A DNA stretch of 30,364 nucleotides from a virus: the IMG/VR virus record IMGVR_UViG_3300030419_001554, positions 1-30,364 of that record. One strand, given 5' to 3'. Position 1 is the first letter of the stretch; each line of letters begins with the position of its first letter. Made by a program: the position numbers and the translations under genes. This document shows positions 4,013-28,988 of the stretch, piece after piece. Under the pieces are notes generated by a model, which was not told where the DNA came from, did no database searches, and was given only the letters and a program-made list of their open reading frames with translations.

Positions 4013-4768
4013 TTATTCCTCTAAAAATTTCTTTAAATTATTTACTATAATAACACCTCGGTCACGAGCTGTTTGTGTTTTGGCTGACTCAATCCCACTC
4101 TCATTTACTAAATAATTGCAGTCTTTAGTCAGACTATTCTTTACCACATAACCATATTTGTTTAATACTTTCTCTGCGAAGGCTTTAGTAGGATAGTTTT
4201 TCAACTTTCCTGTAATACAAACAACACCAGTGACCTCTTGTTTCTTAATAATTTTGTTTTTCCAATCGAAAGGTAGTGTGTCTTTGTAATTGTTCTGATA
4301 GTATTCATCAAATAGCCAGTTTATCAATGAAGCAGTAGCCTTTGGTCCGATTCCCGCTTCAGTACAACTTTTCTCGCTTATATCTTCAATGTCGGATATA
4401 TTATTGCATAACTTTTGAGAAGCTGACCGACCAATAAGTGGTATCGAGAAAGCGGGTAGTAAGTCTACTACTTTGGCATTTCTTGATTTCTGTATTTCGT
4501 TGAATAACTTCTCTGCCATTTTCAATGAACCTATTCTATCTTCAATATCTTCAACAGTTAGTTCATATAATTCGTGGTAGTCTTCGATTTGCAACTTGTT
4601 AATGGTTGCTGGTCCAAGACCTTTTATCTTAAGAACCGAAGCAAATGATTCTAATTTCTTATTCCATTGAGCTGGACAATTAGGATTTCTGCAAAATAGT
4701 TGCTCCCTCACTAATTCTAACTCAGAACTACAAGCTGGGCAAGTAGTTGGAAATTCAATCTGTTTCAA
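4013..4768 (-). CDS. NAD-dependent DNA ligase, C-terminal subunit (Zn finger, HhH, BRCT)
   Basis: This is the DNA-binding half of a bacterial-type LigA made as a separate protein. A four-cysteine zinc finger (Cys10, 13, 26, 31; CPAC and CRNPNC) comes first, then helix-hairpin-helix motifs (IKGLGPATINKL near 49 and PLIGRSASQKL near 110), and a BRCT domain from about 178 (VTGVVCITGKL through the end). It has no adenylation domain; that is the gene at 10326-11321. The break falls at the OB-fold/zinc-finger boundary of ordinary LigA. The ATG lies about 25 nt behind the start site expected from the promoter at 4.8 kb, with an AGAGAAGAAG purine stretch as ribosome-binding site. Confidence 0.88.
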   Translation of the reverse strand: MKQIEFPTTCPACSSELELVREQLFCRNPNCPAQWNKKLESFASVLKIKGLGPATINKLQIEDYHELYELTVEDIEDRIGSLKMAEKLFNEIQKSRNAKVVDLLPAFSIPLIGRSASQKLCNNISDIEDISEKSCTEAGIGPKATASLINWLFDEYYQNNYKDTLPFDWKNKIIKKQEVTGVVCITGKLKNYPTKAFAEKVLNKYGYVVKNSLTKDCNYLVNESGIESAKTQTARDRGVIIVNNLKKFLEE

Positions 4769-4797
4769 TTTCTTCTTCTCTCTTAAATATATAATAT

Positions 4798-4836
4798 ATT
4801 ATATATAATTTTTAACCATTTGTCAAGAACTATTTC
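4798..4836 (-). promoter_or_regulatory. Class A sigma70-type promoter for ligC
   Basis: Minus strand: AAATAGTTC-TTGACA, exactly 17 bp, TATAAT (-35 at 4821-4826, -10 at 4798-4803). Both boxes are perfect consensus. It opens the unit from the ligase C-terminal subunit towards the left edge. Confidence 0.9.
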
Positions 4837-4872
4837 TTGATTCCTCACCAAAAAAGACTCATCAATTTTTGA

Positions 4873-5698: not shown

Positions 5699-6135
5699 GG
5701 CTTAAATACTTTTCCTCTATCTGTTATTAAAAATCCGTTTAAATGGTCAAATTCATGTAGAACAACTCTAGCATCGAAATCTTTGAATTTTCTAGTTTTC
5801 TTTATCGTTTTGTTGTTCTCTACTGTAAAATATTCCATTACAATATAAGAAGGTCTTTTTATTCTAACATGAGTATTTTCGCAACTTAAACACGCTTCGA
5901 AATCTGTTTTTTCATATGGACTTCTTTGTTTAATTTTAGGATTGATAAATATTTCAACAGGGTCTCCTGCTAAAAATATTCTATAAGGTATTCCTATTTG
6001 TATTGCAGCAATACCTATGCCATTATTTTCTTTCATGGCTTCTTTCATTTTATCAACTATTTCATCTAGTTCTTTAAATGTTCCATCAAACTCTTTTGAA
6101 GTTTGTCTTAATATTTTTTCATCTGTTGTAATCAA
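5695..6135 (-). CDS. def: Peptide deformylase
   Basis: Removes the N-formyl group from nascent proteins. All three family motifs are present: GIGIAAIQ (residues 39-46), EACLSC (80-85, with the metal-binding cysteine; usual form EGCLS) and HEFDH (127-131, HExxH with two metal-binding histidines and the catalytic glutamate). At 146 aa it lacks the C-terminal helix of many host enzymes, as is usual for marine phage deformylases. It overlaps the carbamoyltransferase stop by 4 nt. In phages this enzyme is thought to keep up with demand for short-lived or newly made proteins. Confidence 0.94.
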   Translation of the reverse strand: MITTDEKILRQTSKEFDGTFKELDEIVDKMKEAMKENNGIGIAAIQIGIPYRIFLAGDPVEIFINPKIKQRSPYEKTDFEACLSCENTHVRIKRPSYIVMEYFTVENNKTIKKTRKFKDFDARVVLHEFDHLNGFLITDRGKVFKP

Positions 6136-7490
6136 AATACTTTTACTCCTGTTTCTCTTTCAAATTCTTCTGCGTCTTCCCAATCGCTTACCATTGGTTT
6201 TCCTTTTATATTTAAACTTGTATTTAATAACATTGGAATACCTGTTTTCTCATAATATTCTTCTAGTACAGGTCTTAATATAGATTTATGATTGGGTTTT
6301 ACAATCTGAACTCTTGCGCTGCCGTCGACATGCGTGACTGAGTCGTAGTCGTGTTTCGCTTTCGCCGTGAATTGCATGTATTCGTTCGCATACCCTTCAA
6401 AGTAATCGTCATAATATTCCGAGAGGATTGCGGGCGCAAAAGGTCGGAACCTTTGCCGTCTTTTAATACGATTAACGGTGTCTTTGCTATTGTGCCTAAC
6501 ATCAGCAAGCAAAGACCTGTTGCCAAGAGCCCTTGGGCCAAATTCTTCTCTTCCATTGCATACTCCTACTATTTTATTGTACAATAATTCTTCTACTATA
6601 GCTCTTGGATTTGTTTCTTCATTTCTACAATCCACTCCCAAAAAGCTATCATAGTATTTTACTCTTTGTTTTGTATGAGCAAGTATACAGCCTAATGCAC
6701 TACCTGCGTCACCTGGACTTGGGAATATCCACATATTATCAAACATGGGTCTAATTTTAGAATTAGCTACACAATTTAAAGCTACTCCGCCTCCATATAC
6801 TAGATTACTTCCGTATGCTCTTGCTTTGGTCATAATCTCTAATATTTCGACTTCTAACTGTGCTTGTGCACTTGCAGCAATATCTTCTATTGGGTGCCAA
6901 AACCATCTGCTTATTGGTATGCCTTTATGATATGTATTGTTATAATTCAATGCCTCAGACATATCAATACAAGGTTCTCCATACGCTGCCATACCCATTG
7001 TAATATATTCATCTTCATTAGGTTTTAATCCTATACGCTTCGTTATAGCACTATAGAATAATCCTAATGACCAAGGGTATTTCATATAAGATACTTTTCT
7101 TCCATCTTTCCAAATAGTAACAGTATCATATTCTCCGATAGCATCTATTACTACACAAACAGTATCTTTAGTAGTATCCCACGGAGCTGTATACATTCCA
7201 GCTGCCATATGGCTTTCATGGTGTCCTACACTAAGGTCATAATCAGATGAACAAATAGGACTAGGTTTTTGTCCAAAATGTATTCTTCTACTATTCTTCA
7301 ACTCTGTATTCTCATAGAATATAGTAGTTGTATCTCTAGTATGCCATGCGGCTAATAAATCTTTAGGAACATACCTTTCACCTTTTACTTTAGTATGTCT
7401 CTCAGCATGGGTCGCAAAAGTTATATGCCCGTCATCTACGACAGCCATACCTGCGTCATGAAATCCTTCACTAATTCCTATATATCTCAC
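6132..7490 (-). CDS. NodU/CmcH/TobZ-family O-carbamoyltransferase
   Basis: Family members use carbamoyl phosphate and ATP to form a carbamoyl-adenylate and transfer the carbamoyl group to a hydroxyl. Motifs seen: an N-terminal ISEGFHDAGMAVVDDG actin-like strand, VGHHESHMAAG metal-binding histidines, YGGGVALNCVANSKI, PSPGDAGSALG, and in the C-terminal YrdC-like part EEFGPRALGNRSLLAD, RQRFRPFAPAIL and MLLNTSLNIKGKPMV. At 452 aa it is shorter than bacterial homologues (about 550-600). The segment at 6310-6560 is visibly richer in G+C than the rest of the gene. It overlaps both neighbours by 4 nt. The acceptor could be a sugar, a nucleoside or a small metabolite. Confidence 0.92.
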   Translation of the reverse strand: MRYIGISEGFHDAGMAVVDDGHITFATHAERHTKVKGERYVPKDLLAAWHTRDTTTIFYENTELKNSRRIHFGQKPSPICSSDYDLSVGHHESHMAAGMYTAPWDTTKDTVCVVIDAIGEYDTVTIWKDGRKVSYMKYPWSLGLFYSAITKRIGLKPNEDEYITMGMAAYGEPCIDMSEALNYNNTYHKGIPISRWFWHPIEDIAASAQAQLEVEILEIMTKARAYGSNLVYGGGVALNCVANSKIRPMFDNMWIFPSPGDAGSALGCILAHTKQRVKYYDSFLGVDCRNEETNPRAIVEELLYNKIVGVCNGREEFGPRALGNRSLLADVRHNSKDTVNRIKRRQRFRPFAPAILSEYYDDYFEGYANEYMQFTAKAKHDYDSVTHVDGSARVQIVKPNHKSILRPVLEEYYEKTGIPMLLNTSLNIKGKPMVSDWEDAEEFERETGVKVF

Positions 7491-8060: not shown

Positions 8061-8173
8061 CTGAGTACTATTGCTCCTACTAAATATCCTGAGAAGAATA
8101 ACATAGCAGCAAGTCCGGGATTGCTTTTACAAAACTCCCATACTCCTTTCCAAAATTCTTCCCAATCATACAT
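8057..8173 (-). CDS. Small membrane protein, 38 aa
   Basis: Read by hand: starts MYDWEEFWKGVWEF and has one hydrophobic segment of about 18 residues (GLAAMLFFSGYLVGAIVL). The start overlaps the stop of the QueC-like gene by 1 nt (TAATG) and the stop overlaps the GIY-YIG-like start (ATGA), so both ends fit the operon. Function unknown. Confidence 0.7.
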   Translation of the reverse strand: MYDWEEFWKGVWEFCKSNPGLAAMLFFSGYLVGAIVLR

Positions 8174-8868
8174 TAAAATAACTTCCCTTCTTGTTTTTTA
8201 AATATCGCTTTATTAGCTGTATGTTTAGCAAATTTAAACTCTAGACATTTAGTACACTTACCACATGGTACATATCCAAATCTATCATCATTTTTATACT
8301 TCCCACTACAACTCCAAACTAAATCTAATAGTTCTGGTTTATCTTGTGCAATCATTGAAATTATCTCTGATTTATACAAGTATTCAAAAGGAAATATATT
8401 TAAGGGAGCCTGTATTATATGTCTTGGTTTTACACCATGAACTTCTAATTGATGGCTCTGCCCTGCTGCTAATGCTCGTAAAGGGTATCTTAATTGTAAA
8501 CGCTGTCTAAAAGAATCATCAGCGTTTGCTCCCCATACGATATATTTAAAATCAATATCTTTATTTCCTTGAATAATCATGGCAATAGCAGACATTCCTT
8601 GTAAAACAGAATACATATTCTCTTTAGTTTTTTGAGGTAGACTTGATTTATCATCAACTACTAACTCTACATTAAAGAAATCTGCTTGAAGCTGGGCATA
8701 AGCCAGTTCTGGCTCTGCTTGTGTGATTGTATTTGGATTATATAGATGTAAACATAAGGGATTCCACCCTTTTCTTTTAGCATACCATAAAGCTGCAGCA
8801 CAATCTAATCCACCGCTTAGTAAAACTAAACAATTAATTTTTTCTCTATTATCTATGCTGTTAACCAT
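8173..8868 (-). CDS. queC: QueC-like 7-cyano-7-deazaguanine synthase
   Basis: QueC converts 7-carboxy-7-deazaguanine to preQ0 with ATP and ammonia. The ATP-binding PP-loop is at residues 18-22 (SGGLD) in VLLSGGLDCAAALWYAK. A four-cysteine zinc site is at Cys187, 202, 205 and 208 (VPCGKCTKC), as in QueC. A central VWGANADDSFRQRLQLR matches the substrate-loop region. The length (231 aa) is typical. QueD, QueE, FolE and a transglycosylase are not in this window. The gene overlaps the radical SAM gene by 16 nt. Known phage QueC proteins take part in 7-deazaguanine modification of DNA or in queuosine precursor supply; which applies here is open. Confidence 0.82.
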   Translation of the reverse strand: MVNSIDNREKINCLVLLSGGLDCAAALWYAKRKGWNPLCLHLYNPNTITQAEPELAYAQLQADFFNVELVVDDKSSLPQKTKENMYSVLQGMSAIAMIIQGNKDIDFKYIVWGANADDSFRQRLQLRYPLRALAAGQSHQLEVHGVKPRHIIQAPLNIFPFEYLYKSEIISMIAQDKPELLDLVWSCSGKYKNDDRFGYVPCGKCTKCLEFKFAKHTANKAIFKKQEGKLF

Positions 8869-9617
8869 TTCAATCTCTGCTTATCTCTAGCGTCAAGTTT
8901 TCTATTACAAGTAGAGCATACTTTATTACATGCTCTATTTCCTTTTAAAAGATTTTGTTGTAATTCAACAAATTTCTTACTTTTCCAGACATCTAAAATA
9001 TTGTCTGTTTCTATGTTTCCAAAAATATCTGTATTTGTCCAATCATTACAGCATTTTTGTATTGTACCGTCCCAATGTATCCATATTTTAACTGAAGGTA
9101 ATACACAAGGTGTATTTATTTGCGACTTGTCAGTTGCAGTACCTTCATACATTTCAGTACGATTCATAACTTGAACAACGGTTTCACCCCATTCTTCAGG
9201 TTCCATGTTTTGGTCCCAATATCTATGGTAGGCATTTGGAAAAAGTTCTTTTCTCTTTTCCATCATTTCTATACTATCATAGCTGTTCAAGATTATTATA
9301 TCAAATAATTCAAAATAATGTTTTCTTTCCCATAATTTGTAACCATTTGATATAATTCTTGTTTTATAAGTTCTAGTTGGGTGATTTAGAATTTTTGCTA
9401 ATGCTCCGAAATAGGGGTGTAAACTATTCTCTCCCCTACCTGTAAAGCATACTATACCTTTGTATCCGTCTAAATCTAATACGAACTTCTTGAAAAGTTC
9501 AATAGACATATACTCCTTTTCATTAGGATATGAACTAGAGCGTGGACAATAATTGCAGGTTCTATTGCATAACCCACAAACATCTATATTAATCAGTCCT
9601 GGTGTCTTCATATACAA
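8853..9617 (-). CDS. Radical SAM protein with SPASM-like C-terminus
   Basis: The iron-sulfur motif CX3CX2C is at Cys17, Cys21 and Cys24 (CNRTCNYC). TGRGEN near 59-64 and IISNGY are the expected SAM-binding strands. The C-terminal part has the SPASM look: WDGTIQKCCNDW, GNIETDNILDVW, then CNKVCSTCNRK. SPASM proteins bind extra clusters and usually modify peptides or sugars. It is not QueE, despite lying next to a QueC-like gene: it is longer and has the extra cysteine-rich end. It overlaps the acetyltransferase upstream and QueC-like downstream, so the three are probably made together. Confidence 0.86.
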   Translation of the reverse strand: MYMKTPGLINIDVCGLCNRTCNYCPRSSSYPNEKEYMSIELFKKFVLDLDGYKGIVCFTGRGENSLHPYFGALAKILNHPTRTYKTRIISNGYKLWERKHYFELFDIIILNSYDSIEMMEKRKELFPNAYHRYWDQNMEPEEWGETVVQVMNRTEMYEGTATDKSQINTPCVLPSVKIWIHWDGTIQKCCNDWTNTDIFGNIETDNILDVWKSKKFVELQQNLLKGNRACNKVCSTCNRKLDARDKQRLKWLTA

Positions 9618-10089: not shown

Positions 10090-10333
10090 TTTGTATTTGA
10101 GTAAGTATCCCTGTTAATAGTATTGTACATGCTACTGCATTCAATATAATTAAAGCTCTATCTTCCCAAGCTAATGATACATAAAGCCAACCAGCACAAC
10201 CGATAAAAGATAATATTGTATCTGTTAAAGGAGATAATGCTGAAGCTCTAACGCTCATAGCTATAAGTAAAGTAATCGAAGCCGCCCACTTAACATACCA
10301 GTGCATTGGTTTTTTCTCTGTATCTTTACTCAT
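10076..10333 (-). CDS. Membrane protein, 85 aa
   Basis: Three hydrophobic segments at about 13-31, 37-56 and 60-78 follow a charged N-terminus. It resembles small multi-pass proteins of T4-like marine phages, but I cannot assign a transport function. It overlaps the ligase gene upstream by 8 nt and the acetyltransferase downstream by 14 nt. Confidence 0.78.
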   Translation of the reverse strand: MSKDTEKKPMHWYVKWAASITLLIAMSVRASALSPLTDTILSFIGCAGWLYVSLAWEDRALIILNAVACTILLTGILTQIQNAVF

Positions 10334-11321
10334 CTATTCTGCCTACTATTCTTGGTATTATTTCACCACTTCTGATTACTTCTACCATGCAACCTATTTC
10401 TAATCCCAACGCTTCAATATATCCTTTATTATGAAGTGTTGCTCGTGAAACTGTAGCTTCTCCGATAATGCAAGGTTCTAGTATTGCAACTGGAGACACT
10501 GCTCCAGATTTTCCTACTTGCCATTCTACATCTAGTAGTTTGGTCACGACCCCTTTTTGCCGTATCTTCAAAGCGTATGCTCCACGAGGGTGATGTGATG
10601 TGTACCCTAAACTTTCAAAATATATGTTACTATCGAGCCTTATCACCGAACCGTCGTTTGGAAACATGCTCCAATCGCTTTGAATAACAGTTTTGAATCC
10701 ACTCATGTCTAGGAGTGCCATATCTTGATTCCAATAATCTTCTTGATTAGGTTGTAATCCATATGCTACAAATTGGAATCCGTGTTCTCTAACTCGGTTT
10801 CCAAACTCGTTATTGTCTTTTAATCCTAATGAACCAGAAGCAAAGTTTCTTGCATTTGCTATTGTTTTAGGACAAACTACTTCTCCAGTAATTTGTATCA
10901 GTTCTTTACTAACTGCTCCTTGAAGTGTGCCACTAAGAACTTCAGGTACTAAATACCTCATTTTCTCAGTTATATCTAACCCCTGTTTTCCATCTCCTCT
11001 TGTTAATGCCTGATATAGTTCCCCATTGACATAGGTAACCGAGACAGCAGCGCCGTCTAGTTTAGCAGTCATTATATAGGGTTGAGTTTTGTCCCAATTA
11101 GGTTCTTTATCTTCGCCTACAAATACTTTTTGTAGGGAGTACATTGGGAAAGGGTGATTGAAACGCTGTTCGTCTGGACTGACTTGTTCAATTCCAACTT
11201 GGTGTTCAAAATGTGTGTTTTCTACTAATCTATCATACACTTCGTCAGATATTAAAGGCTCTCCTTCGTAATATGCCTCATTGCATTTCTTAATGTAAAT
11301 TTCTAAATCTTCTGTATTCAT
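10326..11321 (-). CDS. NAD-dependent DNA ligase, adenylation subunit
   Basis: This is the catalytic half of a LigA-type ligase. A shortened NAD-binding Ia domain is at 1-40 (YYEGEPLISDEVYDRL). The nucleotidyltransferase motif KLDG has the adenylated Lys87. Other motifs are TRGDGKQGLDITE, ITGEVVCPK and NARNFASGSLGLKDN, and the OB-fold region has WQVGKSGAVSPVA, VSRATLHNKGYIE and SGEIIPRIVG. It stops at the OB fold, without zinc finger, HhH or BRCT, which are encoded at 4013-4768, behind about ten intervening genes. The ATG coincides with the start site expected from the promoter at 11.3 kb, so the mRNA is probably leaderless. Confidence 0.92.
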   Translation of the reverse strand: MNTEDLEIYIKKCNEAYYEGEPLISDEVYDRLVENTHFEHQVGIEQVSPDEQRFNHPFPMYSLQKVFVGEDKEPNWDKTQPYIMTAKLDGAAVSVTYVNGELYQALTRGDGKQGLDITEKMRYLVPEVLSGTLQGAVSKELIQITGEVVCPKTIANARNFASGSLGLKDNNEFGNRVREHGFQFVAYGLQPNQEDYWNQDMALLDMSGFKTVIQSDWSMFPNDGSVIRLDSNIYFESLGYTSHHPRGAYALKIRQKGVVTKLLDVEWQVGKSGAVSPVAILEPCIIGEATVSRATLHNKGYIEALGLEIGCMVEVIRSGEIIPRIVGRIDE

Positions 11322-23628: not shown

Positions 23629-23657
23629 ATTATAACCGATTTTTTACCGAAAGTCAA
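23629..23657 (-). promoter_or_regulatory. tRNA-cluster promoter
   Basis: Minus strand: TTGACT (23652-23657), 17 bp, TATAAT (23629-23634), about 15-20 nt before tRNA-Ala. It lacks the AAATAGTTC element of the protein-gene promoters. It is divergent from the plus-strand promoter 21 bp away. Confidence 0.85.
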
Positions 23658-23677
23658 GAGAAATGTACAACCTAACT

Positions 23678-23717
23678 AAAAATAGTTCTTGACATCATTT
23701 AAAAATTTAGATATAAT
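23678..23717 (+). promoter_or_regulatory. Class A promoter for the HTH-bS21 operon
   Basis: AAAAATAGTTC-TTGACA (-35 at 23689-23694), 17 bp, TATAAT (23712-23717). The ATG of the first gene begins 7 bases after the -10 box, so the mRNA should start at or beside the AUG. Confidence 0.9.
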
Positions 23718-23723
23718 ATACTT

Positions 23724-23921
23724 ATGAAAACTTGGACAGACGAAGATAAAGCATTTCTCAAAGAGCATTATAATGTAATGCCAACGGAAGATATTATGAA
23801 ATATCTGGACAGAAGTGCGTCACAAATCTACTCACAGGTATCATATTTAAGAAAACGAGGTTGGACTTTTCATACTCGGAGGGACATTTCTGTCGGACTA
23901 CCAACTTGGGATAATAGTTAA
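23724..23921 (+). CDS. Small HTH (SANT/Myb-like) DNA-binding protein
   Basis: The 65-aa protein is one copy of the family unit: TWTDEDKAFLKEHYNVMPTE, DIMKYLDRSASQIYSQVSYL, RKRGW. The tryptophan at position 4, the acidic first helix and the RSASQIYSQVSYLRKRG recognition helix recall GcrA or SANT domains. The leaderless start and the strong promoter suggest early, high transcription. Four bases separate it from bS21. It is likely a regulator or a bS21-linked nucleic-acid-binding protein. Confidence 0.78.
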   Translation: MKTWTDEDKAFLKEHYNVMPTEDIMKYLDRSASQIYSQVSYLRKRGWTFHTRRDISVGLPTWDNS

Positions 23922-23924
23922 TAT

Positions 23925-24185
23925 ATGCCATCAGTAGAATGTAAAAATATGTCCTTCGAAAAAGCACTACGCATTTTCAAGAAAAAGGTTGAAAGGGCAG
24001 GTATCAAGGAAGAAGTGCGAGAGCGTCAACACTATACTAAACCAAACAGAAAAAGGTATGAACAGAAAAAATCTGCGCAACGCAGACGAGAAATCGACAA
24101 ATTAAAGGAAGAACAACGCATTCTAGCAAAGAAAAGAATGTTGAGAGCAATGCCTAGCTTCAAAGATAGACGCTACGAAACATAA
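23925..24185 (+). CDS. rpsU: Phage-encoded ribosomal protein bS21
   Basis: The bS21 pattern is clear: a short beta start (MPSVECKN), then SFEKALRIFKKKVERAGIKE, VRERQHYTKPNRKRYEQKK and a long basic helix (cellular: FDVALRRFKRSCEKAGV, EVRRREFYEKPTxERKR). At 86 aa it is a little longer than E. coli bS21 (71 aa), with a Lys/Arg/Met-rich C-terminal extension. bS21 sits near the Shine-Dalgarno/anti-Shine-Dalgarno helix on the small subunit. Phage copies, known from pelagiphages and some giant phages, are thought to bias host ribosomes to phage mRNA. Confidence 0.88.
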   Translation: MPSVECKNMSFEKALRIFKKKVERAGIKEEVRERQHYTKPNRKRYEQKKSAQRRREIDKLKEEQRILAKKRMLRAMPSFKDRRYET

Positions 24186-24276
24186 ACTTTCTCACAAATT
24201 GTCAATGGACATACCAATATATAAATTATTTTCATCATAAATGAACTTACAACTATCCTTCCCACCATTACCTAAG

Positions 24277-24316
24277 AAAAACAGTTCTTGCTTTCTGGTG
24301 AAAGTTGTGATATAAT
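24277..24316 (+). promoter_or_regulatory. Class A-like promoter for a plus-strand RNA
   Basis: AAAAACAGTTC-TTGCTT (24288-24293), 17 bp, TATAAT (24311-24316). The -35 box is weaker than in the other promoters, but the upstream element and the spacer are conserved. No ORF follows. Confidence 0.75.
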
Positions 24317-24323
24317 ATTATCA

Positions 24324-24450
24324 TAAATTAGATATATAGCAAATACAAACTACTAATTGCACTTTCCTTTCCTAAGCTGATGCTGAGAGCCGAATGAAGC
24401 GTAAGCGAGAATGAGGCGAGCATCTAATCTAGGAAAAATTAAAGTGCTGA
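24324..24450 (+). ncRNA. Candidate small structured RNA
   Basis: Behind the promoter there is no reading frame for over 250 nt. Instead a long imperfect hairpin spans 24359-24447: GCACTTT with AAAGTGC, TTTCCTA with TAGGAAA, GATGCT with AGCATC, GCC with GGC, and a GC-GTAA-GC tip. The inner loops are purine-rich (GAATGAA facing GAGAATGA), as in folded RNA motifs. The 3' end is uncertain: no plus-strand terminator is clear, although a T-run occurs near 24577-24582. From 24450 to 24590 I see nothing else. I cannot match it to a known RNA class. Confidence 0.62.
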
Positions 24451-24589
24451 TTGTATAATCAATATCAACAAGATAAAGTCAAGCAATTCTGCTACTTCAA
24501 TGACTTTAATAATTCACATTAATCACTAATTACTAAAAATTCGTCTCAATATCCCACAACTTGCGCCAATCCAAAATTTTTTAACCAAT

Positions 24590-24611
24590 AAAAAAGGGAC
24601 ACTTAAGCCCC
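24590..24611 (-). terminator. Rho-independent terminator of the 28.2-24.6 kb unit
   Basis: Minus strand: GGGGC pairs with GTCCC (one G-U) around TTAAGT, followed by TTTTTT. It lies 28 nt behind the stop of the last gene. Confidence 0.8.
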
Positions 24612-24639
24612 TAATTTACAATGATTTCTCCTAGTTTAT

Positions 24640-24861
24640 TCAAATTCCATCGAATATACTACCACTAGATAAAGGTATGTTTGGGTCTTGCAGCATTCTT
24701 ACTCTTTGAACTGGTACTGTTTCTCTATGACCATCAGCGAATTTCAATCTAGCCTGCATACCCGTTGGGCTTTCGATAAGTCCTAACACTTCAGCATACA
24801 GTCCATGTTTTTCCACTAGTTTATCATCTTTTGACAACTTACATATCCTTTTCTTAACCAT
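24640..24861 (-). CDS. Hypothetical protein, 73 aa
   Basis: A basic N-terminus (MVKKRICKLSKDDKL) is followed by a beta-strand pattern (LYAEVLGLIESP, MQARLKFADGHRETVPV), which could be a small SH3/KOW-like barrel. No family is recognised. Its start overlaps the stop of the HTH gene by 8 nt; a terminator follows. Confidence 0.72.
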   Translation of the reverse strand: MVKKRICKLSKDDKLVEKHGLYAEVLGLIESPTGMQARLKFADGHRETVPVQRVRMLQDPNIPLSSGSIFDGI

Positions 24862-25180: not shown

Positions 25181-25341
25181 AGTAAGTCCTCCCATTCTTT
25201 TATCATTTGTTTAACTTTGTAGGTTGAAACACCCCACTCTTCTGCAGCTACTTCTATAGCTTCAGCGTGTCCGTATTTACTTTCCCACTCCCAAAATTCA
25301 GATTCCTTTTCCATTAGGTTTTCTTGGTATCTATTCGCCAC
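25171..25341 (-). CDS. Small HTH-like protein, 56 aa
   Basis: Read by hand: GTG start at 25341 with GGAG five bases upstream, then MANRYQENLMEKESEFWEWE and YGHAEAIEVAAEEWGVSTYK, VKQMIKEWEDLLWQ. The middle looks like a helix-turn-helix (AAEEWGVSTYKVKQMI). It overlaps both neighbours by about 10 nt. Probably a small DNA-binding protein. Confidence 0.68.
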   Translation of the reverse strand: MANRYQENLMEKESEFWEWESKYGHAEAIEVAAEEWGVSTYKVKQMIKEWEDLLWQ

Positions 25342-27881: not shown

Positions 27882-28229
27882 TTAATTGTGCAAGTTCATA
27901 TCAAGTTGCATCGGTTTTGCACTGTTATCCGATGGAACTCCTTTCTCTAATTTATACTCCGAAAAGTGGTCAATTATATACTCTCCAACAATATCAACTA
28001 AAGTGTTGTAATCGTTGCAGTCACAGTCGCAGTCATATGCTACTTCCATTGCTCTTTCCCAGAGTGCTGTTGGAACACTATCTAAATCGATGTAGTCCTC
28101 GTGATTGTCGTCTTTATCAAATTGACTCCAATAACTTAAATCTTCTTGTAGACTTTGAATATCTAGCACTGTAACAATTTTACAGTTAAATTCCTTTTCT
28201 ACAATTTGAAGCATTCTCCATAAATCCAT
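27882..28229 (-). CDS. Acidic hypothetical protein, 115 aa
   Basis: An acidic protein with an unusual CDCDCN stretch (about residues 67-72) in VAYDCDCDCNDYNTLVDIVG. Helical N-terminus (MDLWRMLQIVEKEFNCKIV). AGGAG precedes the ATG, and the leader is about 19 nt. It is the first gene of the unit that runs to 24.6 kb. Acidic early phage proteins often inhibit host enzymes, but nothing here proves this. Confidence 0.74.
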   Translation of the reverse strand: MDLWRMLQIVEKEFNCKIVTVLDIQSLQEDLSYWSQFDKDDNHEDYIDLDSVPTALWERAMEVAYDCDCDCNDYNTLVDIVGEYIIDHFSEYKLEKGVPSDNSAKPMQLDMNLHN

Positions 28230-28254: not shown

Positions 28255-28292
28255 ATTATAAACGATTTATAAGTGATTGTCAAGAACTATTT
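28255..28292 (-). promoter_or_regulatory. Class A promoter for the 28.2-24.6 kb unit
   Basis: Minus strand: AAATAGTTC-TTGACA, 17 bp, TATAAT (-35 at 28278-28283, -10 at 28255-28260). Confidence 0.9.
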
Positions 28293-28333: not shown

Positions 28334-28357
28334 AAAAAAGGGACTCCGAAGAGTCCC
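28334..28357 (-). terminator. Terminator of the large ncRNA
   Basis: Minus strand: GGGACTC-TTCG-GAGTCCC followed by TTTTTT. Seven perfect pairs closed by the very stable C(UUCG)G tetraloop make this the clearest terminator of the window. No protein gene lies directly upstream of it. Confidence 0.92.
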
Positions 28358-28942
28358 TAAAAACTGCCATTTGGTCGTTTTATCGTTAAGTTAATGCTAT
28401 CGGTAAGGGCTACTCTACGCTAGCTCTTTTCGCCCTTACAGCATGGTTGTCTATTAAAGCGTGGTTTCCTCAACGCTACGAGATATTTAGGTCGTATCTA
28501 CGCATCAATCGCCCAATACTTCACTCTTTTTACTTGCTACTGGTGTATCGCCCAACTTACAAGTGCCTTGTTTGTCATTACAGTCGGCTTTGAACTGCTA
28601 CTTCCAGCAGGTATACATGGAAGGTTAGGTTCGGGATTGCTCTTGCTACTCCCATAGTTTAACTACTATACATGCAATGCCTCACATGGTTTCCCTCAAC
28701 CAAGTTGTGTGAACTGCTCTCTCATTCTCATATTTAGGCATTTTCTCGCTACTTCCTATCCCAGAGCAATACAAATTCTCTCACATAGTGTCGTTCTACA
28801 ACTCTTTCGCGAACACACTCCCTGTCGGGTTAGTCTTGGGAGATTTATGGGGTGTTCCCCACTTAATAATCTTCCCTTTCCTTTTTCACTGTTGCTACCA
28901 AGAAATTGGTTTGTTATCAGTGAGTTCTTCTCTATTTATTAT
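28334..28942 (-). ncRNA. Large structured non-coding RNA, about 600 nt
   Basis: A dedicated promoter (28.95 kb) and terminator (28.34 kb) enclose about 600 nt with no convincing ORF on the minus strand. The RNA folds into many helices: an 8-bp hairpin GUAAGGGC/GCCCUUAC (28403-28439) whose stem continues as a GAA-facing-AGUA (loop E) motif; a 9-bp stem AGUGU-GUUC/GAAC-ACACU with one bulge; long-range pairs AUUGCUCU/AGAGCAAU (28763-28770 with 28636-28643) and AUGCCU/AGGCAU (28736-28741 with 28677-28682) enclosing UCACA/UGUGA; and UCACUG/CAGUGA near the 5' end. Sub-motifs recur: GUUGAGG(G)AAACCA twice, UUGGGCGAU twice, and GUAGC in AGUAGCRAG-like contexts several times. Size, loop E motif and phage setting recall the GOLLD and ROOL classes, but I cannot show membership. 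Confidence 0.78.
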
Positions 28943-28948
28943 TTATAT

Positions 28949-28988
28949 ATTATAACCGAATTTTTTATAATTGTCAACAAAAACTTTA
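28949..28988 (-). promoter_or_regulatory. Class B promoter for the large ncRNA
   Basis: Minus strand: AAAGTTTTTG-TTGACA, 17 bp, TATAAT (-35 at 28972-28977, -10 at 28949-28954). The upstream element differs from the AAATAGTTC class and is shared with the promoters at 29.6, 30.1 and 30.2 kb. Confidence 0.9.

Follow-up and report, generated by a model that had tools for sequence, protein, structure and literature searches.

The window, that is, the whole stretch of 30,364 nt of viral DNA that was analysed, carries a member of a new class of phage RNA: large, non-coding and pseudoknotted, 0.6–1.3 kb in length and equipped with its own promoter and terminator. Judged by the Rfam covariance models, this RNA falls outside every catalogued family. 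A first-pass annotation had described the region as an orphan structured RNA gene with a promoter and terminator of its own, perhaps of a new large-RNA class, and this description is supported, with transcription as a prediction. The structure of the family RNA is established by the homologues, not by the window sequence alone. Taken as a whole, the best explanation, which we consider somewhat probable, is a new class of pseudoknotted RNA with a fixed position in T5-like marine phages that acts in trans, in a structural or scaffolding role.

By the anatomy of the sequence, window positions 28942–28334 (minus strand) form a discrete, non-coding transcription unit. The unit is headed by the promoter TTGACA-N17-TATAAT at 28949–28977 (minus strand), which matches the consensus at 12 of 12 positions, and is closed by an intrinsic terminator at 28334–28358 (minus strand), whose hairpin (28358–28339; 8-bp stem with a UUCG loop) is followed by a T run. 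Both signals had been proposed in the first-pass annotation, and both are beyond chance. The RNA (28334–28942, minus strand) would be 609 nt long, with an inferred 5' end about 7 nt past the -10 box. After the terminator, 51 nt lead to the next perfect promoter (28255–28283, minus strand; 12/12 consensus), which parts the RNA from the downstream gene at 28229–27882 and is the promoter of that gene. Perfect matches to TTGACA-N17-TATAAT number six in the region from 22.5 to 30.4 kb, the RNA-gene promoter among them. The longest sense ORF in the RNA has 30 aa, below the mean of 48 aa in shuffled copies, which bears out the earlier claim that no credible protein is encoded.

Many helices had also been claimed from this one sequence, and in this respect the claim does not hold, as complementary-word counts and folding energy are both at background. 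The folding energy of the window RNA corresponds to a z value of -2.9 (20 shuffles), or -1.7 in a separate script, and six control stretches of the same phage, mostly coding, gave z values of -1.3 to -3.6. Folding energy was dropped as evidence of structure, because the control stretches are equally well folded. Complementary 8-mers number 3 in the window RNA versus 2.4 ± 2.0 in shuffles, complementary 6-mers 37 versus 38.8, and the 7-mer count is also at the shuffled level; helix counting in one sequence was dropped as well, being at chance level. The earlier list of helices, taken alone, is therefore no evidence. Its long-range pairings (28763–28770 with 28636–28643, and 28736–28741 with 28677–28682) are exact complements, of chance frequency and outside the homologue coverage, and the CUUCCA/UGGAAG and CUGCU/AGCAG complements near 28590–28622 are present as sequence. 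Repeated sub-motifs, likewise claimed, are found: 9-mer repeats are mildly enriched (5 versus 1.2; 7/200 shuffles), and the second copy of GUUGAGGAAACCA lies inside the conserved hairpin at 28476–28459.

Homologues were sought with a nearby MazG protein as the query, which led to 80 loci. At least about 24 related contigs, all homologues being metagenomic viral contigs and several nearly identical, have a long non-coding stretch at the equivalent position. The promoter-RNA-terminator cassette of the relatives, 0.8–1.3 kb, comes after a D5-like gene and lies upstream of mazG. The gene order is fixed (D5-like DNA-binding gene, RNA, small conserved genes, mazG), and an RNA-sized non-coding gap is found wherever the fetched locus includes the D5-like gene upstream as well as the genes downstream. 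A script whose sole conditions were a perfect promoter and a terminator with another promoter 35–75 nt beyond it returned 21 units of 609–1278 nt, some of them near-identical. The distance from the terminator to the next promoter is 49–52 nt in 20 of the 21 loci, and perfect promoters head the cassette in 20 loci besides the window. In two loci (L076 and L115) the RNA-sized gap is present with its own promoter not recognised. No cassette unit contains a sense ORF longer than the maximum in shuffled copies. The first-pass annotation had asked whether homologues keep base pairing or a reading frame: the pairing covaries (see below), and the ORFs are of shuffled length. Six contigs were scanned whole with the core model, and each has one strong match.

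The window shows the same arrangement, a promoter, the RNA, a terminator, 50 nt and a promoter, placed after the D5-like gene and before the genes that precede mazG. Eight homologues, the window not among them, were made into a profile, which matches window positions 28555–28457 with E = 5e-7 over the roughly 1.3 Mb of sequence that had been fetched at that point (E-values refer to fetched loci). Covariance model R1, which was built from another sequence set, again with the window excluded, matches the window at the right place but weakly (E = 0.013), the weakness being due in part to the different form of the core helix S1 in the window. Position, strand, cassette spacing and a hairpin described below as module A are all concordant with membership of the family. 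The window RNA is the shortest member; it is almost without a 3' domain, and its 5' half (about 28880–28580), module A aside, has no homologue among the fetched loci.

Unlike the relatives compared, the window has an inserted gene that separates the D5-like gene from the RNA. This gene, of the PD-(D/E)XK nuclease superfamily (PF20472; 29058–29477, minus strand) and absent at this place in the relatives compared, is possibly a homing-type insertion. Its protein was considered as a partner of the RNA and rejected, as it has no relative in the viral contigs searched and no such cluster occurs elsewhere between the D5-like gene and the RNA. Two further leads were discarded as chance, namely a first motif scan with GTTGAGGNAAACCANGNNNG, which gave 52 matches, and locus L055, which had been found by a loop-E pattern.

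The conserved core domain occupies 28457–28564 (minus strand) in the window, as indicated by the window-free profile match and by covariation. It consists of helix S1, a stem-loop S2 whose loop pairs downstream (S3), a pairing PK2 into the loop of S4, and a hairpin S5; the S2 loop holds the 5' arm of S3, and the S4 loop holds the 3' arm of PK2. The window has S1, the S2–S3 pseudoknot, the S4–PK2 pseudoknot and the GAUUGA linker, as located by the profile and, weakly, by R1. Covariation was assessed in alignment A3, which was made by sequence alone from 12 RNAs with the window left out; of the five helices counted there, two cross others. The core covariation score in A3 is 0.450 versus 0.180 when shuffled (0/500 shuffles), and it drops to 0.07–0.15 when the partners are slid by 1–3 columns; the shuffles ignore the relatedness of the sequences, for which the sliding control corrects. 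Both sides change in 16 of the 22 pairs. In a 25-sequence alignment that includes the window, both sides change in 18 of the 22 pairs, and 44 further pair types are seen versus 34 expected (0/500). Three helices (S1, S3 and S4) served to fit this alignment; in the two unfitted ones, S2 and PK2, 94% of the cells are paired. L062, the weakest row, is probably a false match. Seventeen S3 arm pairs, picked by eye, are 99% complementary. RNAalifold, applied to the mixed alignment A2, recovered PK2 alone, because the S2/S3 region has two forms.

The helices of the core may be placed in the window as follows, all on the minus strand. S1, which covaries in the family, is assigned by eye and by analogy with L059 (about 8125–8165) to 28564–28560 (ACUUG) and 28536–28532 (CAAGU); its internal extension (28559–28537, UAAGU..GUAG) resembles that of L059, with apical UGG/CCA versus UCC/GGA in L059. 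The S3 pseudoknot, whose arms covary in the family, would be formed by GAUAC (28549–28545) and GUAUU (28519–28515), by analogy with CUCUAA/UUAGAG in L059. PK2 joins GGC (28513–28511) to G(A)CC (28493–28490), and the corresponding cells in the family are 94–100% paired, with C-G, G-C and A-U exchanges. S4 (CG-U-AGAUA, 28502–28495; UAUCU-CG, 28485–28479) has paired variants across the family, which include GAUA/UAUC, GAUG/CAUC, GAUU/AAUC and GACA/UGUC. The S5 hairpin GCGU-UGAGGAAACC-ACGC (28476–28473/28462–28459) has a variant in the close relative L056 and contains the motif GA[G/C]GAAACCAC, which is common to eight other phage RNAs.

The close relative, contig IMGVR_UViG_3300030328_002790 (L054/L056), is collinear with window 18.5–28.5 kb at 94% identity and spans the last ~205 nt of the window RNA. 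The differences between the two within the RNA preserve pairing. For example, the 3' hairpin with a loop-E-like internal loop (28394–28444, minus strand; GUAAGGGC/GCCCUUAC within AUGCU/AGCAU) has lost one pair from both arms together in L056, where GUAAGGGC/GCCCUUAC is replaced by GUAGGGC/GCCCUAC; the loop-E hairpin of the first-pass annotation (28439–28432/28410–28403) is thus confirmed. The S5 stem GCG/CGC becomes GUG/CAC (GUGA..CAC), GGC/G(A)CC of PK2 becomes GGU/ACC, and a different stem is substituted in the terminator. Single-base indels such as those in L056 are not tolerable for a protein gene.

Near its 5' end the window RNA carries module A (28885–28924, minus strand), a hairpin with a covarying outer stem, an invariant internal loop AUAACA/AGCAA and an inner stem ACCA/UGGU. 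In an alignment of 26 distinct copies, the outer stem varies freely yet pairs, and the covariation score is 0.502, versus 0.122 when shuffled and at most 0.129 with slid partners. Module A is found within other large RNAs (L077, L082, L084, L091, L156, L158 and L169), as a hairpin in the leader, set between tandem promoters immediately before the large RNA (L068/L072, L152, L163, L166, L172, L176 and L189), and in the 5' leaders of protein genes of other phages (L160/L161 and L180). The gene that follows it is HSP20-like in L160/L161 (translation read by eye) and dehydrogenase-like in L180. Leaders of HSP20-like phage genes (named by eye) with module A lie at L160 5824 (minus strand), L161 4241 (plus strand) and L179 50–164 (plus strand); in L179 module A is followed by a sub-threshold match to the ROSE_3 heat thermometer (27.6 bits, E = 0.1). 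Exact pattern searches found no scanned contig with more than one copy of module A and no match in several members of the RNA family, and module A is absent from Rfam, its loci matching neither manA nor wcaG. That a mobile hairpin recurs in mRNA leaders of other phages suggests a partner that binds it.

The window phage is a distant relative of T5, as indicated by a split NAD-dependent ligase (~46% identity to Demerecviridae), a D5-like protein and a DnaB-like helicase. The ligase is split in two genes (10326–11321 and 4013–4768, minus strand), as in T5-like phages. Paralogues of the D5-like/DNA-binding type (phrog_323) lie at 25195–24854, 30191–29739 and 4009–3293 (minus strand), and in the relatives one such paralogue immediately precedes the RNA cassette. 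From the kinds of relatives and genes seen, the lineage appears to be marine. The core model gave nothing significant in T5, AhSzw-1 and VPT02, and matches of cultured phages to the window RNA are only of terminator-hairpin or promoter size. No relative was found by blastn of two homologous RNAs against 50,697 GenBank phage records, and, with respect to host genomes, one exact 21-mer was absent from the genome collection searched.

Several other features of the window were recorded. Beside the tRNA cluster, the region 23629–24640 contains divergent promoters and a gap in which hairpins resembling terminators lie at 24087 and 24612; two small ORFs on the opposite strand lie at 23724–24185, the first having by eye the look of a helix-turn-helix DNA-binding protein. 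QueC-like and radical-SAM genes (8173–9617, minus strand) suggest 7-deazaguanine chemistry in DNA or tRNA. A cluster at 13.5–19.6 kb (minus strand) comprises JmjC/cupin, 2OG-Fe(II) oxygenase, family 8 glycosyltransferase and DUF6445 genes, and a Nol-like carbamoyltransferase gene is present at 6132–7490. The promoter region at 4779–4840 resembles that upstream of the 28229 gene, as a repeated promoter unit, and is 81% identical over 63 nt to L056 243–305.

With respect to function, the most likely reading, by analogy, is trans action by an RNA of the GOLLD/ROOL kind with a structural or scaffolding role. From a strong promoter of host type (sigma-70) the phage would make a discrete, abundant RNA, which would fold compactly, with the pseudoknots S2/S3 and S4/PK2 holding its tertiary structure together. 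The RNA may then act in trans during cell takeover, alone, as a homo-oligomer or together with a host or phage protein; trans action is suggested because a terminator and a new promoter follow the RNA. It would work in the manner of GOLLD and ROOL while standing outside both families, and its size would change through gain and loss of peripheral modules round the conserved core. More tentatively, it is possible that these RNAs represent yet another natural class of phage assemblies, made of RNA only or mainly of RNA and without relation to GOLLD or ROOL, in an uncultured marine T5-like lineage. In such assemblies a pseudoknotted core would be combined with modules that can be exchanged, one of them also reused by phages as an mRNA leader element.

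The main alternative to the structural-RNA reading is a decoy or sponge function via module A, in which the module would bind a regulator of the mRNA leaders that carry it, and the RNA would titrate that regulator or a host target (ribosomes, RNase). Such a function is supported by the presence of module A, with its invariant internal loop, in the 5' leaders of protein genes of other phages (such as L160/L161) and in a leader hairpin that precedes the large RNA. However, several members of the RNA family have no exact module A match, and there is at most one exact copy per contig, so that target and sponge would not occur within one phage; a decoy is rather unlikely. A leader or attenuator acting in cis on the downstream genes would suit the location of the RNA directly upstream of these genes on the same strand. 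This reading is quite improbable, because the RNA has its own terminator, followed in 20 of the 21 loci by a new perfect promoter after about 50 nt, and the first downstream gene varies among phages. The ornate pseudoknotted core might also be expected of a catalytic, intron or retroelement RNA, but no intron, ribozyme or retron model matches, the flanks are a promoter and a terminator instead of exons, and no reverse transcriptase is among the genes identified, which makes this very improbable. That a DNA-level element (an origin, packaging or transfer site) mimics an RNA gene is extremely improbable: it would account for the single fixed position, but the element is bracketed by a promoter and a terminator in the sense orientation, and its helices accept G-U pairs.

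A diverged GOLLD, ROOL or OLE past the reach of the Rfam models has to be weighed against the searches with these models. The Rfam scan of the window returned four tRNAs only. A lax whole-library scan of the RNA region gave only sub-threshold chance matches, with none to GOLLD, ROOL or OLE at E ≤ 10, and the scan of eight homologous loci gave none to these three at E ≤ 1, the RNAs of these loci being likewise without a match in Rfam. Direct searches of the window with the covariance models of GOLLD (RF02032) and ROOL (RF03087) were empty; the control genomes for ROOL contained no positive, and therefore the whole-library scans carry the weight. The check by GOLLD and ROOL models that the first-pass annotation had proposed thus finds the RNA to be neither. 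Size, phage setting and tRNA proximity are in favour of a diverged member of the three; the tRNAs of the window are 4.7 kb from the RNA gene, and among the loci examined a tRNA is directly upstream of the cassette in L072, beside it in L163 and L176 (by eye), and absent from most. Considering the empty searches, such a diverged member is highly improbable.

To our knowledge, the large structured RNA classes whose function is unknown are very few, and two members of this small set, GOLLD and ROOL, proved to be RNA cages. A further phage RNA class allows one to ask whether phages evolve such RNAs repeatedly. The clear structural core, the exact gene borders and two dozen diverse sequences are ready material for structure and knock-out work.

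Among known systems, the manA and wcaG motifs (RF01745, RF01761) are 5' UTR elements of marine phages, manA also of ibpA genes (PMC2864571). Their setting recalls that of module A in L160/L161, whereas the module A loci match neither motif. OLE is similar in being ornate and about 600 nt long, but it is a class of bacterial genomes, and its model matched nothing in the whole-library Rfam scans of the RNA region and of the eight homologous loci. GOLLD and ROOL are phage or prophage RNAs encoded near tRNA islands, and they assemble into cages of RNA alone (PMC12286853). GOLLD, often over 800 nt, has conserved and variable domains (PMC12286853); the present RNA is likewise a large non-coding phage RNA with conserved and variable parts, but differs in that the GOLLD covariance model does not match it. 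ROOL, with a 659-nt example, is pseudoknotted and without a known protein partner (PMC12286853). The present RNA resembles ROOL as a large pseudoknotted phage RNA and differs from it in the absence of a model match and, so far, in its confinement to viral contigs of a T5-like lineage.
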